Source: Trueperaceae bacterium
Lineage (GTDB): Bacteria > Deinococcota > Deinococci > Deinococcales > Trueperaceae
Length of the DNA stretch: 64,000 bases
Assembly (NCBI GenBank): GCA_030147925.1
Contig: JASBUK010000109.1
Location: 1-64,000, forward strand
Reading direction: 5' to 3'
In this document: positions 3,850 to 45,110 of the stretch, piece after piece
Layout: every line of letters begins with the position of its first letter
Numbering within the stretch: position 1 is the first letter of the stretch
Notes under the pieces: generated by a model
What the model was told of the DNA's origin: nothing
The model's input: the letters and a program-made list of their open reading frames with translations, nothing else
Database searches by the model: none
Program-made: the position numbers and the translations under genes

Positions 3850-3958
3850 CTAATGCCAAACCGATTTAATGATGGCGCAATATCCACCGTCCCAGGTTAC
3901 ACTCTCGCGAGTGGTTTTAATGGCACAGTGTGCCATTAAAACAGCACCTTGGTATAAG
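3850..3958. repeat. Small inverted-repeat element, family 3, 103 bp plus TAA repeats
   Basis: The element core runs from TGCCAAACC to CACCTTGGTA and is flanked by TAA on both sides (3851-3853 and 3956-3958). Inside lies a perfect 27-base palindrome: TTTTAATGGCACA (3915-3927), G, and its complement (3929-3941). Most of its left third (ATGATGGCGCAATATCCA) recurs in reverse orientation at 27250-27399. The right end forms TGGTATAAG, an extended -10 box 34 bases before the permease start. It separates the binding-protein gene from the permease genes. Confidence 0.8.
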
Positions 3959-3992: not shown

Positions 3993-5117
3993 ATGTTTGA
4001 CGCGCGCACTAAAGCAACGCTGTCGTCTGCTCCCAAAACCTCAAGAGGCAATCGAAAAAACAAAGAGGCATTCGCAGGTTGGCTTATGGCTGCGCCCGCT
4101 ATCATCCTCTTACTCACCTTTTTGATTGTTCCTTTTATCTTTGCCTTTGGTCTTTCATTGACCAATCAGCGACTCATCTCGCCAAATCCAACTGAGTATG
4201 TAGGGTTGCGTAACTACAAACGCCTGCTCAACGTGCGCTTCTTTACACTTAAGCCCCTAGTCGATGCCGAGGGCAACCCCGTCTTGGATGAAGAAGGTCA
4301 GATAAGTTATCCACGCCTGCGCAACTTTACACGCAACAACCCCGATTATCCTCAGCTAAACGGCCTGCGTGAATTTAAGTCTTGGCAGGTGGGTAAAAAC
4401 CGGCTGGTTCTGCTTGCAAGTGACGCCGTGTTTTTTAGGGCGCTACTTAACACCATCATTTTTGTCATTGTCGTGGCACCACTCCAGGCGGGTTTTGCAC
4501 TTCTTTTAGCGCTTTTAGTCAATCAACGCCTAAGAGGGGTTAATGTCTTCCGCATGATTTATTTCATGCCCGTCGTTATTTCCATGGTCGTTGTCTCCAT
4601 GCTCTGGCGCTTCATTTATGATGGCAATGACGGCCTGTTGAATTCTCTGCTGAGCGCCGTTAGTTTTGGAGCCTTTCAGCCGGTCGACTGGTTGGGCAGT
4701 CCCCAAACCGCGCTTGGCTCTATTATTGCCATGTCGGTCTGGCAGGGTGTGGGTTTCCACATGGTTATCTGGCTCTCGGGTTTACAAACCATTCCCTTTG
4801 TGCTCTATGAGGCTGCTTCGATAGCGGGAGCAAACGGCTGGCAAAAGCTGAGGTATGTCACCTGGCCCGGTCTACGCAATACCGCCGTACTCATCTTAAT
4901 TGTCATCACCATGCAGTCTTTCAGCCTCTATACGCAAGTGCAGGTTATGACCAGGGGCGGACCTTTGGACTCGACCCAAGCCATTGTTTTTCAGGCGGTT
5001 CAGCGAGGCTTTGAGAAACAAGACATTGCCGGGGGCTCCGCCATTTCTGTTTTGCTCTTTTTGATAGTTTTATTCATTTCCATCATGCAGAGCTACTTGA
5101 CCAGGGAGAAAAGATAA
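3993..5117 (+). CDS. ABC sugar permease, MalF/UgpA type
   Basis: Inner-membrane subunit with an N-terminal transmembrane helix (residues about 30-55), a roughly 65-residue polar insertion (about 75-140, containing PNPTEYVGLRNYKRLL and PLVDAEGNPV), then five more helices. The EAA loop that contacts the ATPase is EAASIAGANGWQKLRYVTWPGL. AAGGAGG lies upstream of ATG 3993. The stop overlaps the next gene's start as TAATG, so the permeases are translationally coupled. The insertion between the first two helices recalls the large P2 loop of MalF. No ATPase gene is adjacent; a shared MsmK-like ATPase elsewhere is likely. Confidence 0.92.
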   Translation: MFDARTKATLSSAPKTSRGNRKNKEAFAGWLMAAPAIILLLTFLIVPFIFAFGLSLTNQRLISPNPTEYVGLRNYKRLLNVRFFTLKPLVDAEGNPVLDEEGQISYPRLRNFTRNNPDYPQLNGLREFKSWQVGKNRLVLLASDAVFFRALLNTIIFVIVVAPLQAGFALLLALLVNQRLRGVNVFRMIYFMPVVISMVVVSMLWRFIYDGNDGLLNSLLSAVSFGAFQPVDWLGSPQTALGSIIAMSVWQGVGFHMVIWLSGLQTIPFVLYEAASIAGANGWQKLRYVTWPGLRNTAVLILIVITMQSFSLYTQVQVMTRGGPLDSTQAIVFQAVQRGFEKQDIAGGSAISVLLFLIVLFISIMQSYLTREKR

Positions 5118-7038: not shown

Positions 7039-7068
7039 GCAAACAAGGGGTTGCAACCCCTTGTTTGC
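7039..7068. terminator. Long perfect hairpin after the sugar operon
   Basis: The 13-base arms GCAAACAAGGGGT and ACCCCTTGTTTGC around loop TGCA form a perfect hairpin 60 bases after the glycosidase stop. A T run is missing downstream on either strand, so termination may be Rho-assisted. It sits between convergent genes and could serve both. Confidence 0.65.
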
Positions 7069-27249: not shown

Positions 27250-27399
27250 CTAATATCAAAGCGCTGTTTTAATGCCGCAGTGTGCCATTAAAACCACTCG
27301 TGTTCAGGATGCCGCGTAGCGTAACGGTTTCCGAACTGAAGGCGAGAACGCTCAGCTTAAACGATGGATATTGCGCCATCATTACAAGTTTGTTATAAG
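27250..27399. repeat. Small inverted-repeat element, family 3, longest copy
   Basis: In reverse orientation relative to 3850-3958. It is bounded by TAA (27251-27253 and 27397-27399), with ends TATCAAAGC and TTTGTTA. It shares TTTTAATGCCGCAGTGTGCC (an imperfect version of the 27-base palindrome) and GGATATTGCGCCATCATTAC with the other copy, plus about 40 bp of extra middle sequence (GAACTGAAGGCGAGAACGC). It lies 41 bases upstream of trmFO; TTGTTATAAG at its end may act as a weak -10 box. Confidence 0.8.
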
Positions 27400-37723: not shown

Positions 37724-37747
37724 TGGCATTGACAGCTGTCAATGCCA
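37724..37747. promoter_or_regulatory. Perfect 24-bp palindrome before the efflux operon
   Basis: TGGCATTGACAG (37724-37735) is followed at once by its exact reverse complement (37736-37747). It is 50 bases upstream of the first efflux gene. TTGACTG and CTGTCAA half-sites lie nearby at 37679-37697. The size and symmetry fit a TetR-family or similar dimeric repressor; no regulator gene is adjacent. Confidence 0.8.
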
Positions 37748-38927: not shown

Positions 38928-39791
38928 TTGAGACTGGCAATCATAGCGGATATTCACGGCAATTTACCAGCGCTGGAGGCGGTGCTGGCTGATACAGCAA
39001 AACAAGGGGTAGACCAGCTTATCGTCAACGGCGACCTGGTCAACCGCGGCCCCGCTAATGTCGCGGTGATGGAGCGCCTGATAAAACCGGATATCGTGGT
39101 CACACTGGGCAACCACGACGACCTGATGCGCAAATGGATTGACCGTTCGCCGGATATCCCTGGTCAGTGGTTTGATGATCCCTTTTGGCAGGCCATGGCC
39201 TGGACGGCCCGGCAACTTGCCGAAGCCGGCTGGATCGACGCCTTGCGCACACTGCCCATGACCCACCGGGTGGCAGTAAATGGCGCGCCAAGCCTGCTCA
39301 TTTCCCATGGCAGTCCCCGTCATTACCGTGAGGGCTATGGCAAATATCTAAGCGATGAAGCCATCTCAGAAATCGTGCAGGATTTTCCGGCGGATATCCT
39401 CATCGGTTCGCATACGCACTATCCTCTTAAGCGCCGTTGGGGCAGACATCAGGTGCTCAATACCGGCGCGGTCGGCACACCTTTTAACCACGACCCTCGG
39501 GCGCAGTATCTCTTGATGACGCTTAAGCAAGATGGCTGGCAAGCGGAATTCCGGGCTTTGGATTATGACCGCGAAGCGGCTCTGCAGGCTTTTGAAGCTC
39601 TGGGTTATATACCTGCAGGGGGTTTAAGCGCTTATATCTTCCATGAGGAACTCAGGTGCGCTCGAGCCCTCCATGTCCCGTTTTGGATGTGGACCGAAGA
39701 GCAGGATAAAGCCAGAGACTGGGCCAGCTGGGAGCTATTCCGCCAGAGCTTCCCTGATAAGTTTTTAGAGCCAAGTAGAGACCTGACCTAA
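38928..39791 (+). CDS. Calcineurin-like metallophosphoesterase
   Basis: A 287-residue phosphoesterase with the five metal-binding blocks: IIADIHGNLPALEAVL (Asp-x-His), VNGDLVNRGP (GD-x2), TLGNHDDLM (GNHD), LLISHGSPRHYRE (GH-like His) and LIGSHTHYPLKR (GHTH-like). N-GAVGTPFNHDPRAQYLL closes the family pattern. It resembles YfcE or ApaH-like predicted phosphodiesterases. The start TTG 38928 gives MRLAIIADIHG, the normal N-terminus; TAGACT eight bases before makes a leaderless TTG start possible. Substrate unknown. Confidence 0.88.
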   Translation: MRLAIIADIHGNLPALEAVLADTAKQGVDQLIVNGDLVNRGPANVAVMERLIKPDIVVTLGNHDDLMRKWIDRSPDIPGQWFDDPFWQAMAWTARQLAEAGWIDALRTLPMTHRVAVNGAPSLLISHGSPRHYREGYGKYLSDEAISEIVQDFPADILIGSHTHYPLKRRWGRHQVLNTGAVGTPFNHDPRAQYLLMTLKQDGWQAEFRALDYDREAALQAFEALGYIPAGGLSAYIFHEELRCARALHVPFWMWTEEQDKARDWASWELFRQSFPDKFLEPSRDLT

Positions 39792-39905: not shown

Positions 39906-40373
39906 GTGTGGCGATGGTGGCCGGTACTGTTCATCCTGTTAGGCAATCTAACGCTGGCAAACCCCGCGCTGGACAGCGATGCTGATGGCTACCCCGACGC
40001 CACCGAAATCAGCTCGGCGGCAGACCGCGCCGCTTTTTTGGACTGGTTCGCCAGCATTGCCGAAGCCCAATATACCGCCATTGCTGATGATTGGGACCCT
40101 CGTTATCGGGATTGTTCCGGTCTCCTGCGCTACGCCTTTGTCGAGGCGCTAAAAACCAAAGATACCGCCTGGTTTGCCAAGTTTCCCTTTCTGCCCAAAG
40201 TTGATATTCCACCGCTGCGAGGCCTCAGCTATCCCATGCCTGAGATCAGCCGCAGTGTCTTCCGTATCGCTCCCGGCGCCTTTAGCCATAACGATGTTGA
40301 GCTTGGCAAAATGGTGGGTCTGTCCACCGCCACCGAGCTTATGAATTACGCTACCGTCCCAGCGGGACGGTAG
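39906..40373 (+). pseudogene. DUF1175 (YfaT-like) cysteine hydrolase, 5' part of a split gene
   Basis: This 155-residue reading frame starts at GTG 39906 after GGAGG (TRWW-like VWRWWPVLFILLGNLTLANP signal peptide). A DSDADGYPDATEI segment resembles a calcium-binding loop. Cys70 in RYRDCSGLLRYAF is the NlpC/P60-type catalytic Cys. The frame stops at TAG 40371-40373, before the expected catalytic His, which is in the next frame. The pair corresponds to one DUF1175 protein of E. coli YfaT type, also beside an alpha-2-macroglobulin gene. It may be a frameshifted gene, a frameshift-translated gene or a two-part protein. Confidence 0.75.
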
Positions 40374-40374
40374 C
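40350..40374. repeat. Perfect 25-base hairpin at the split of the DUF1175 gene
   Basis: GCTACCGTCCC (40350-40360), loop AGC, and the exact complement GGGACGGTAGC (40364-40374). The right arm contains the TAG stop of the first half, and GTG 40375 of the second half follows at once. Confidence 0.9.
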
Positions 40375-40623
40375 GTGGATAGGGCGCGACGCGGTGATTT
40401 ACTCTTTTTTGTCCACCCGCTGGCCGAGGGCTCGAGCTATCACAGCATGGTCTATCTGGGTGAAAACAAGGTGGTTTATCACACGGGTTTAAGCCCCGAA
40501 CAAGGGGGTGAAGTGCGCCTGCTCAGCCTGGAGACCCTAAATAAACATCCCGACCCGAGCTGGCGTCCGGTTCCGGAAAATCCGAACTTTTTGGGTTTTT
40601 ATCGCTGGAAGATCGTCGACTAA
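40375..40623 (+). pseudogene. DUF1175 (YfaT-like), 3' part of a split gene
   Basis: An 82-residue frame from GTG 40375 ([20 protein letters not shown]). RRGDLLFF and YHSMVYLG match the second half of NlpC/P60-like folds, with His23 of SYHSMVY as the candidate catalytic His missing from the upstream frame. It ends [10 protein letters not shown], a natural C-terminus. It is one base downstream of the first frame's stop, so re-initiation is possible, with GGACGG as a poor SD sequence. See the upstream part for the joint interpretation. Confidence 0.75.
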
Positions 40624-40703
40624 CGGTTCTTTTGGCGCGGGTTATTGCATTCGTCGTCTGCTTGCCAAAAATGTCAACAGCAAGATCAAGGAGGCACCAG
40701 CAC

Positions 40704-43700
40704 ATGCTTAATCACAGAGTTATCACAAAGCAGCGCGGCATTTATAAACTGGTAATATTGCTGCTGCTTTTGCCCTTGCTCCTTAGCAGTGCGGCACAAA
40801 GCCGCTTCTGGCTCTACGGGGGTGGAAGCTATACACCTAATGAAGCTATAACCTTGGAATATTATCTGCCAGTCGGGCAAACTGTGGGCTTCCAGCTTTA
40901 CCGCGTTGACAACCCCGAAAAGGTGCTTGAGCTGGGCGGACCGCGGGGCTTTAGCGGCAGCGAGGAGCTTGACCTAAGCCCCTTGCGCCGCTTTGAGTTG
41001 CGGCAACAGGAAAACTACTATGGTCAGCTTAATCTAGGTCGCTTGAGCCGCGGGCTTTACTTTGCACAATTGGGTTCCGGGCCCAACGCCACCGCCACCC
41101 TGATTCTGGTCACCGACCTTAGTCTGGTGGTCAAATCCGATCAGGACAGCATACTAAGCTACACTGCGATGAGCGACTCGGGAGAACCGCGCCGGGCCAA
41201 GATCTATCTGCTGCGCGGCGACACACTCTATGCCGAAGGTTTAGCTGGCGAGGGCGGCCTGACCGAATTTAACACCGAGAACAACCGCGCTGACTTAGTG
41301 GTGGCGGCTAAGTACGGTGACTCCTGGGCTTTTAGCGGTTCATACTGGCGACGCTGGAGCCTAGAAAAAGCGCGGGTCTACGTCTTTAGTGATCGTCCGG
41401 TCTACCGCCCCGGACAAATCGTTTACTTTAAGGGCACCGCCCGCTCGCCCGCCGGTTTGACTCCGCTCAGCGACCACAGCGTAGAGCTCAGCATCATTGC
41501 GGCAGACAACAGCGAAATTTTCCGCCAGAGCTATAACACCGATGCCTACGGCAGCTTTAGTGGCGAGCTAAGCTTAGGGCTCGAGCCACCACTGGGCAGC
41601 TATCGCATCGAGACCAGGGTTCTGGGCCAGAGCAGTTACAGCAGTTTTGAGGTGCAAGAATACCAGAAGCCCGAATACCGCGTTACGGTCACGCCGGACA
41701 GTGCCGTGAGCGTTCAAGGCGAAACTGCCCGCTTTACCATCAAGGCCGACTACCTCTTTGGCGGTGCGGTAGCCGGTGGCAAGGTCAATTACGTCTTGTT
41801 CAAGCAACCCTTTTACCGCTACCGCTACAGCTCGCGTTTTGCCTTTTACGAAGAGACTTCCTATATCAGCCCCTACGGCGGTGAGATAGTTCAGCGTGGC
41901 GAAGGCGTGCTAAACGATGAGGGTGAGTTGGTGCTTGCATATGCGCTGCCTCAAGACGAACAGGCCTACCAACTGACCTTACAAGCCGGTGTCACCGACG
42001 AGGCGCGGCGCGAAATCAGCGGCAACGGCAAGCTGGTGGCATACCGCTCGAGCCTTACGCTCAATATCAGTGTCGACCGCTACGCCTACCGCACCGGAGA
42101 AGAACTGCGCGTCACTGTGCAAGCTGAAGATTTAGAAGGCAAGCCCGTTAGTGTGCCGCTAACTGTCAGCGCCGAGCGTTATAGCTGGCAGCGCAGTGAA
42201 GGCAGACAGGTAGAAACGCTACGCGACTGGTCACTACAAACCAACGAAGACGGCACGGCCAGCTTCTCTACTTCACTTTCCGAGCAGGGCAGCTACGGCT
42301 TCATTGTCAGTGCTCAGGACGGCAAAGGACGCAAAACTTCTGCACGCGACAGCGTCTGGGTAACTGATGGTTCGCGCTGGTACTGGGCCTATGACGGTCT
42401 CAATATCACAGCGGACAAACCCGAATACGAGCTTGGCGACACCGCCCGTTTTGTCATCCAATCACCCGTTGCCGATGCCTATGCGCTAATCACGCGCGAA
42501 GGCCAGGAGCTTTATTCCTACGAAGTTATTAAGCTAAACGGCTCCGTGCTCACCTATGAACTGCCCATTACCGAGGCGATGACACCCAACGGCTATCTCT
42601 CGGTAGTGATTGTCGGCAACGGCAATACCTACAGCGAAACCGTTGGCTTTCGGGTGCCACCGGCGGATAAATTCTTAAATGTTGAGATCAACTCGGACTC
42701 GGACAGCTACCAACCGGGCGAAAGCGGCAATTTTGCCCTGCGCATTTCGGATGCCAGTGGCCAGGGTGTGCGGGCGCAGGTCGCGCTGGGTCTGGTCGAT
42801 GAAGCCATCTATCTGCTGCGCCCGGACAACAGTCCGGACATTCGCGGCTTCTTCTATGCCCTTAAAGGCAATTTGGTCGGCACGCAACTGAGCAATTGGT
42901 ATTACTTTGGACGTGCCGAGCCCTTAGCCTTAGAATCGGCACCCATAGCGGAGCGTGAAGCCATGAGCGATGCGGTCTTTGGACAAGGCAAGGCGGATTT
43001 TGCCGAGCCGGATATTCGCGAGGATTTTCGTGACACCATCCTCTGGCTACCCATGTTAGAAACCGATGAAGACGGCCTGGCTACGGTTTCGGTCACCTTC
43101 CCGGACAATTTGACCGAGTGGCGGCTCACGGCTAAGGCCATTACCTTAGACGACAAGGTCGGTCAGAACAACTATCAGGTGAAAACCACCTTGCCGGTGA
43201 TTGCCCGCTTAGCCGCGCCCCGCTTTTTTATTCGTGGTGACGACGCCTCGCTGCGAGTCATTGGTCAAAACAATCTGAGCAACGTTCAGACGGGTGAACT
43301 GCGTTTAGAAGCAGACGGCCTGGTGCTTGCTAATCCAGCGCCGCAGGCAGTCAGCTTGGCCGCCGGTGGTAGCGCCAGCGCCAACTTTGCAGTGCAGGCT
43401 ACCCAAAGCGGCACGGCCACCCTTACGGCCAGCGCCCTGACTCCGGCAGCCAGCGACGCCCTTAGACTCCCTATTCCCATTTTACCTCACGGCATCCGCG
43501 AGGAAATCGGCTGGGCTGGCAGCGGCTCGAGCAACTGGCGTTTTAGCCTACCGAACAGTGTATCTCTGGAAAATACCCAAGGGACGCTCTATCTCACTCC
43601 TTCACTGGCTGCGGCGGTTTCACCGGCACTTTCTTATCTGGCCGGTTATCCCTATGGCTGCACCGAGCAGACCATGAGCCGCTTTTTACCCAGCGTCTTA

Positions 43701-45110
43701 GCGGCCCAGGCGGGTGAGTTGGCCCAACTACCCGAAGAAATTGCTAACAAACTCGATGACATTGTGCAAGCCGGTCTTAAACGCATTTACGACTTCCAGC
43801 ATGAAGACGGCGGTTGGGGTTTTTGGCAATATGACGCGTCCAGCCCCTTTATCAGCGCCTATGTGCTCAGCGGCTTGCTGCAAGCCCAGGAAGCCGGTTA
43901 CCGCGTGCGCGACAGCGTCTTGGAGCGAGGTCTTAACTATCTCGAAGAGCTGATTAAGACCACGTCCTTTGCCGACTACCGGGTAGTTGATGCCGACGGC
44001 AAGGCCTACGCCTACTATGCGCTGGCTCGAGCCGGGCGCAATATTGACGGCTTAGCAGGCTTGGCTGGTGCCAAGGAAATGTCGGCCTATGGCCTGGCTT
44101 TAAGCGTACTGGCCTTTGAGCAGGCGGGTCGCCGCATCGAGGCTGAACTCTATTTGGACGAACTCTTAAGTCAGGTAAGCGAGCGCGAACGGGTGGCCTA
44201 CTGGGAAACAAATGCTCCACGCTACTATTGGAATGATGACCGCATAGAGGCTACCGCCTATGCCCTAGAAGCCTTGGTTAGGCTCCGTCCGGACGACGCG
44301 ATTATCAGCAAGGTGGTCAATTGGCTGCTGCTCGAGCGCCAGGGGGCACGCTGGGTCGCCACCAAGGATACCGCCGCTGTGATTCGGGCCGCGCTCACCT
44401 TGGCCGAAGTCCGCAATGAAGCCGACATCGACTATCAGATTAGCGCCAGCTTAAATGGTGCGGTTCTCGACTCCAGGCGTATTAAGGGCCAGAGCACGGC
44501 CAGCTTTGAACTGCCGCTGGTCGGCTTTAGGGCGGGAGCAAACGAGCTCGAGCTCTTCATAGAGGGTAGCGGCACGCTTTATGCCAGTGCGGCAGTAAGC
44601 TTTTTCAGCGAGCGTGACTACCTCAACCCCGAGACGGAATTTATGACGGTGACGCGTACATACGAAGCCTTAAGTCCTCAGTTTATGGAACCAGAGCAGC
44701 GTTATATTTACCAGCGCAGCCCCCTCAGCGGCCAAAGCACCGTCGGTGACTATGTCTTGGTCACAGTGACCATAGAACCACAAGGGCGTTACCGTTACGT
44801 GTTGGTCAACGAACCGCTTCCCGCTGGCTATAGGGTAGTAGAAAACGACCTGGCTTTCCGCATCAGTGGGCTTAACCCCCGTTATGGTTATGGCTATTAC
44901 GGCTGGAACTACTGGTACGACGGACGTGACATCCGCGATGAACGCGTGGATTATTACTTCAGCAGCTTAGGCGATCCGGTGACATTCAGCTATATCCTGC
45001 GCGCCGAAACACCCGGCAATTTTAACGCGCTGCCCACGCAAGCCTGGCTGATGTACGAACCAGAAGTGCGTGGTGTAGGCGTGCAAGCTACACTGACGGT
45101 AACAGAATAA
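40704..45110 (+). CDS. Bacterial alpha-2-macroglobulin (YfaS-like)
   Basis: A 1468-residue periplasmic or surface protein that would trap proteases. ATG 40704 follows AAGGAGG by nine bases; the frame is open 24 codons earlier but without a signal. It starts with a signal peptide (LVILLLLLPLLLSSAAQS, no lipobox). MG domains include FSDRPVYRPGQIVYFKGTAR (MG2) and DNLTEWRLTAKAITLDD. The thioester motif is intact: GCTEQ with Cys986 and Gln989, followed by the alpha-helical TED domain (EDGGWGFWQYD). The lack of a lipobox differs from E. coli YfhM. It lies between DUF1175 and metallopeptidase genes. Confidence 0.94.
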   Translation: MLNHRVITKQRGIYKLVILLLLLPLLLSSAAQSRFWLYGGGSYTPNEAITLEYYLPVGQTVGFQLYRVDNPEKVLELGGPRGFSGSEELDLSPLRRFELRQQENYYGQLNLGRLSRGLYFAQLGSGPNATATLILVTDLSLVVKSDQDSILSYTAMSDSGEPRRAKIYLLRGDTLYAEGLAGEGGLTEFNTENNRADLVVAAKYGDSWAFSGSYWRRWSLEKARVYVFSDRPVYRPGQIVYFKGTARSPAGLTPLSDHSVELSIIAADNSEIFRQSYNTDAYGSFSGELSLGLEPPLGSYRIETRVLGQSSYSSFEVQEYQKPEYRVTVTPDSAVSVQGETARFTIKADYLFGGAVAGGKVNYVLFKQPFYRYRYSSRFAFYEETSYISPYGGEIVQRGEGVLNDEGELVLAYALPQDEQAYQLTLQAGVTDEARREISGNGKLVAYRSSLTLNISVDRYAYRTGEELRVTVQAEDLEGKPVSVPLTVSAERYSWQRSEGRQVETLRDWSLQTNEDGTASFSTSLSEQGSYGFIVSAQDGKGRKTSARDSVWVTDGSRWYWAYDGLNITADKPEYELGDTARFVIQSPVADAYALITREGQELYSYEVIKLNGSVLTYELPITEAMTPNGYLSVVIVGNGNTYSETVGFRVPPADKFLNVEINSDSDSYQPGESGNFALRISDASGQGVRAQVALGLVDEAIYLLRPDNSPDIRGFFYALKGNLVGTQLSNWYYFGRAEPLALESAPIAEREAMSDAVFGQGKADFAEPDIREDFRDTILWLPMLETDEDGLATVSVTFPDNLTEWRLTAKAITLDDKVGQNNYQVKTTLPVIARLAAPRFFIRGDDASLRVIGQNNLSNVQTGELRLEADGLVLANPAPQAVSLAAGGSASANFAVQATQSGTATLTASALTPAASDALRLPIPILPHGIREEIGWAGSGSSNWRFSLPNSVSLENTQGTLYLTPSLAAAVSPALSYLAGYPYGCTEQTMSRFLPSVLAAQAGELAQLPEEIANKLDDIVQAGLKRIYDFQHEDGGWGFWQYDASSPFISAYVLSGLLQAQEAGYRVRDSVLERGLNYLEELIKTTSFADYRVVDADGKAYAYYALARAGRNIDGLAGLAGAKEMSAYGLALSVLAFEQAGRRIEAELYLDELLSQVSERERVAYWETNAPRYYWNDDRIEATAYALEALVRLRPDDAIISKVVNWLLLERQGARWVATKDTAAVIRAALTLAEVRNEADIDYQISASLNGAVLDSRRIKGQSTASFELPLVGFRAGANELELFIEGSGTLYASAAVSFFSERDYLNPETEFMTVTRTYEALSPQFMEPEQRYIYQRSPLSGQSTVGDYVLVTVTIEPQGRYRYVLVNEPLPAGYRVVENDLAFRISGLNPRYGYGYYGWNYWYDGRDIRDERVDYYFSSLGDPVTFSYILRAETPGNFNALPTQAWLMYEPEVRGVGVQATLTVTE

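Follow-up and report, generated by a model that had tools for sequence, protein, structure and literature searches.

The DUF1175 gene (PF06672; MagC-like or YfaT-like) at positions 39906–40623 of the window, by which we mean the whole 64,000-nucleotide stretch of Trueperaceae DNA analysed here, is divided between two reading frames, as seen from its open reading frames and profile matches. It carries a net gain of one base relative to intact genes in other genomes of its class, and this gain lies within the 3′ arm of a perfect palindrome. From the sequence, we think it likely that the gain is a quasipalindrome-templated +1 frameshift which truncates a magC-like gene.

The two halves of the gene and its relatives

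The 5′ part (39906–40373, forward strand) begins with a GTG at 39906, just downstream of a Shine-Dalgarno-like GGAGG, and its 465 coding bases end at a premature TAG (40371–40373). It matches positions 8–120 of the PF06672 profile (E 4e-17), contains the Cys motif DCSG within RDCSGLLRYA, and starts with a Sec-type signal peptide as judged by eye. The 3′ part (40372–40623, forward strand, +1 frame) matches profile positions 138–225, contains the motifs RGDLLFF, YHSM and YHTG, ends with a TAA at 40621–40623, and is 83% identical to the closest relative. Both halves exceed the PF06672 cut-off, and the frame changes at 40371; the gene is thus a DUF1175 member by descent, broken and not intact. These results bear out the initial annotation, which had described a DUF1175 gene split over two frames, a Cys half and a His half, with a TAG at the break and a GTG (40375) one base further on; the Cys sits in DCSG and the His in YHSM. 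It had also called the Cys and His catalytic. Both residues are present, one in each half, but the label is unproven, since DUF1175 appears in a survey of papain-like folds among the inactive families of the NlpC/P60 group, as one that binds peptidoglycan (PMC10318531).

Among solved structures the nearest is MagC of Pseudomonas aeruginosa (PDB 7BK8; E 5e-29 with a profile of the relatives), and alignment with its segment VGRDLNQARPGDLMFY places the break in the linker just before the GD-motif strand. The AlphaFold model of the closest relative was set aside for its low confidence (mean pLDDT 50).

A search of the class found DUF1175 in 20 other genomes, and all 20 genes were open frames of 237–544 aa through the match, with no internal stop. 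Nineteen of them were aligned, L009 being too divergent for the motif. None of the 19 shares the two-frame arrangement, all being fused, and none has a comparable hairpin at the same place. In every one of them the spacer from the V-P-like pair to RGDLLF ("VP...RGDLLF") counts 11 residues, and the spacer in the window is one base longer; since the spacer is constant, the lesion amounts to a net +1. Two ways of restoring a single frame had been put forward, the deletion of 13 bases and the removal of one base near the TAG. The second agrees with the comparison, while the first does not fit it, and an insertion of 13 palindromic bases is ruled out because the spacer would be four residues too short once such an insertion was taken out. 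The first frame of the window gene keeps the G-R pair (G-R or G-K in 19/19 relatives), and the second frame aligns from S/T-x-D/E onwards, including ARRGDLLFF, which puts the additional base at about 40368–40374, within the 3′ arm; it may be any one of the bases in this interval.

The Cys half departs from the relatives at 0 of 25 otherwise invariant positions, the His half at 1 of 43. Because neither half has decayed, a real break would be recent, and the same observation also fits an assembly error or continued expression.

Directly downstream lies an intact alpha-2-macroglobulin (A2M) gene (40632–45110, forward strand) with the Pfam domains MG2, A2M_BRD, TED, A2M and bMG10 and a thioester motif, GCTEQ, at 43656. 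Its frame covers 1492 aa from the first TTG, the real start being likely further in. The intact DUF1175 product would be a partner of the A2M, associated with the cell wall. DUF1175 was found in 5 of 39 genomes of the family, the present one included, and all five have an A2M of about 1500 aa; this short-type A2M lies on the same contig, a few kb from DUF1175, in four of them (again including the present genome) and on another contig in the fifth. Two size classes of A2M were observed in the family, about 1500 aa with DUF1175 and about 1830 aa without it, and most other A2M-bearing genomes of the family lack DUF1175 and carry the larger type (about 1830 aa in complete genes).

The palindrome at the frame change

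The break falls in a perfect inverted repeat at 40348–40376 (forward strand), formed by the arms ACGCTACCGTCCC (40348–40360) and GGGACGGTAGCGT (40364–40376) around a loop of 3 nt, with the frame change inside the 3′ arm. A perfect hairpin across the break had already been recognized, and this stands; its arms are of 13 bp and not of 11 bp as first described. Such perfect 13-bp arms are the feature that associates the site with quasipalindrome-associated mutation. The folding energy of a 101-nt stretch was −42.5 kcal/mol, against a mean of −29.9 for shuffled sequences. An order-2 Markov simulation of 3.84 Mb produced no hairpin with arms of at least 13 bp and a loop of at most 3 nt. No second copy was found in the genome even when up to 3 mismatches were allowed, which rules out a mobile or repeated hairpin element.

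Across 1.2 Mb of this genome, 77 perfect hairpins (arms of at least 11 bp, loops of up to 8) were counted, of which five, including the DUF1175 one, lie at a same-strand frame change. No other perfect hairpin at an intragenic frame change was present in this 1.2 Mb: those at frame changes in L057, L076, L094 and L099 are all intergenic or at gene starts, and L044 2995–3026, considered as a second hairpin-broken gene, is the gap between a catalase-like and a Fur/PerR-like gene (named by eye).

The genome also contains other palindromic repeats. GCTCGAGC, a palindromic octamer, was counted 1038 times in 1.198 Mb where about 20 occurrences are expected from base composition, a 52-fold over-representation, and its near variants with one outer base changed occur 15–39 times each; 70 sites lie in the window (for example at 39660, 40430 and 43525). 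It is thus a highly iterated palindrome of the HIP1-like kind, here in a member of the Deinococcota. Among sister genera, GGCTCGAGCC is abundant as well in G001, G008, G009, G010 and G017, while in others it stays close to the control level. A review of HIP sequences, which covers cyanobacteria, mentions neither GCTCGAGC nor Deinococcota (PMC4390886). A longer palindrome, GTTTTAATGxCAC(A) / (T)GTGxCATTAAAAC, recurs at 3914–3942 and 27266–27294 of the window and at L041 12681, L047 1352, L079 3086 and L103 4304, and is probably a shared operator or regulatory site. The perfect palindrome AACAAGGGGTTG|CAACCCCTTGTT is found at 7039–7068 of the window, L038 4953 and L045 3587. Another, around TATTGACA/TGTCAATA (or CATTGACAG|CTGTCAATG), has arms of up to 22 bp and occurs at 37724–37747 of the window, L038 2321, L034 9981, L089 673–716, L092 18923, and L093 111 and 5718; it resembles an operator or a pair of −35 elements.

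Origin of the extra base

Removal of any one base from the 3′ arm leaves 12 of the 13 pairs and one bulge, i.e., a quasipalindrome, and a precursor of this kind is implied by the present sequence. Before the change, the arms would probably have paired imperfectly, over about 12 bp, with a single base left unpaired. DNA polymerase pausing at the arms would have briefly copied the other arm, and this quasipalindrome-associated template switch would have added the missing base, giving both the perfect 13-bp palindrome and the premature TAG. The resulting allele would be a truncated or loss-of-function one of recent origin, with a Cys part that is made and exported and a His part that is not usefully made. 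The perfecting of imperfect repeats by mutations of this type, frameshifts included, is long established, with examples from E. coli, T4 and yeast (PMC7202029; PMC8794818), and a single template-switching step can produce a perfect hairpin (PMC8794818). In 367 kb, only 16 of 1,469,964 possible single-base insertions would complete a palindrome (at least 13 bp, loop of at most 8), that is 1.1e-5 or about 1 in 90,000, and a palindrome-linked cause is favoured because a random frameshift at such a site is this improbable. The initial annotation had listed a palindrome-templated insertion among four options. It is the best supported of them, in the form of a net +1 that perfects a quasipalindrome and not of 13 inserted bases. 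Other histories could lead to the same sequence: the palindrome could have been perfect beforehand, or more bases could have been rewritten simultaneously.

A palindrome-linked cause may also have acted outside the cell, as a palindrome can also cause template switching by the polymerases with which libraries are prepared or sequenced. The extra base would then be an error made at the hairpin during sequencing or assembly and the gene would be intact in the cell, a reading to which we give a minor but appreciable chance. It would account for the undecayed halves and for the presence of DUF1175 alongside short-type A2M in every genome of the family that has DUF1175; the assembly is moreover a draft (2.98 Mb, contamination 0.22%) of 151 contigs, many of them short, and the site would lie in a strong hairpin (−42 kcal/mol). 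However, completeness is 100%, and the rest of the examined sequence is nearly devoid of broken genes. Other perfect intragenic hairpins, such as L074 10192–10222 and 14253–14282 of the window, sit in open frames. A scan of coding frames over 367 kb found, besides the DUF1175 gene, one possible broken gene (L044, near 4228) and one remnant, of a LuxR-type gene (L031 5579–5771), too few for a generally indel-ridden assembly, which they argue against. The L044 case (about 4223–4275) concerns a protein predicted to be secreted and containing repeats; the frame may shift between copies of the repeat, through a deletion or a collapse of repeats in the assembly. The neighbouring genes of the operon are open, as first described, and so are the other large frames of the window, including those of 1614, 1492 and 943 aa.

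The two options that would keep the divided gene in use fare much worse. A programmed +1 frameshift at CGG-TAG-C, yielding a full-length protein, would suit the exact +1 shift, the conservation of both halves and the TAG followed by C, a weak termination context. We nevertheless hold it to be very improbable, as the arrangement occurs in 0 of 19 aligned relatives, the P-site tRNA would re-pair poorly on moving from CGG to GGT, and the sequence at CGG-TAG-C reads as having no slippery site and no Shine-Dalgarno-like stimulator at the usual spacing. Also, the hairpin is located upstream of the stop and spans it, and from these positions a ribosome at the TAG would already have opened it.

Termination at the TAG and re-initiation at the GTG at 40375 would produce two chains forming a working two-part protein, and the single base between the two codons lends itself to this. 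It seems still more doubtful, since no Shine-Dalgarno sequence precedes the GTG, no relative has a split gene, and the domain is interrupted immediately ahead of its RGDLLFF strand. The two chains would also end up in different compartments because only the Cys half has a signal peptide. We see equally little chance of a reversible switch, in which template switching between quasipalindrome and perfect palindrome would turn the gene off and on in a population, in the manner of a contingency locus.

Significance and comparison with known systems

With template switching as the preferred cause, the lesion looks like one of an ordinary and well-known kind, a copying error (or a sequencing error of like nature), and not like a new route of making protein; the finding gives no hint of a novel mode of gene expression. 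A real extra base would provide a clean natural example in Deinococcota of a palindrome-perfecting frameshift, useful for showing how genes are broken by mutations of this type, and would mean that a genome can lose magC and yet retain the macroglobulin gene.

The window gene is homologous to MagC (7BK8; PF06672; YfaT in E. coli) over most of its length, the Cys, GD and His motifs being aligned, and like magC it stands directly before an alpha-2-macroglobulin gene. It differs from MagC in its broken frame, and the adjacent A2M keeps the thioester motif GCTEQ, whereas MagD, the partner of MagC in P. aeruginosa, is thioester-less. With RF2-type programmed +1 frameshifting (prfB) it has in common a stop codon at a +1 frame change; unlike prfB, it has no slippery codon, no Shine-Dalgarno stimulator and no conservation of the arrangement, and the stop is UAG, not UGA.

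Template-switch mutations associated with quasipalindromes were reportedly described by Ripley in 1982, and Lovett is said to have worked on the thyA hotspot of E. coli and on lacZ reporters of quasipalindrome mutation. The window gene differs from these cases in that the end product alone is seen, in one genome, the event and the parental sequence being unobserved. What the window gene shares with quasipalindrome template-switch mutations is the outcome: a small change inside an inverted repeat, by which the repeat is perfected and the frame shifted.
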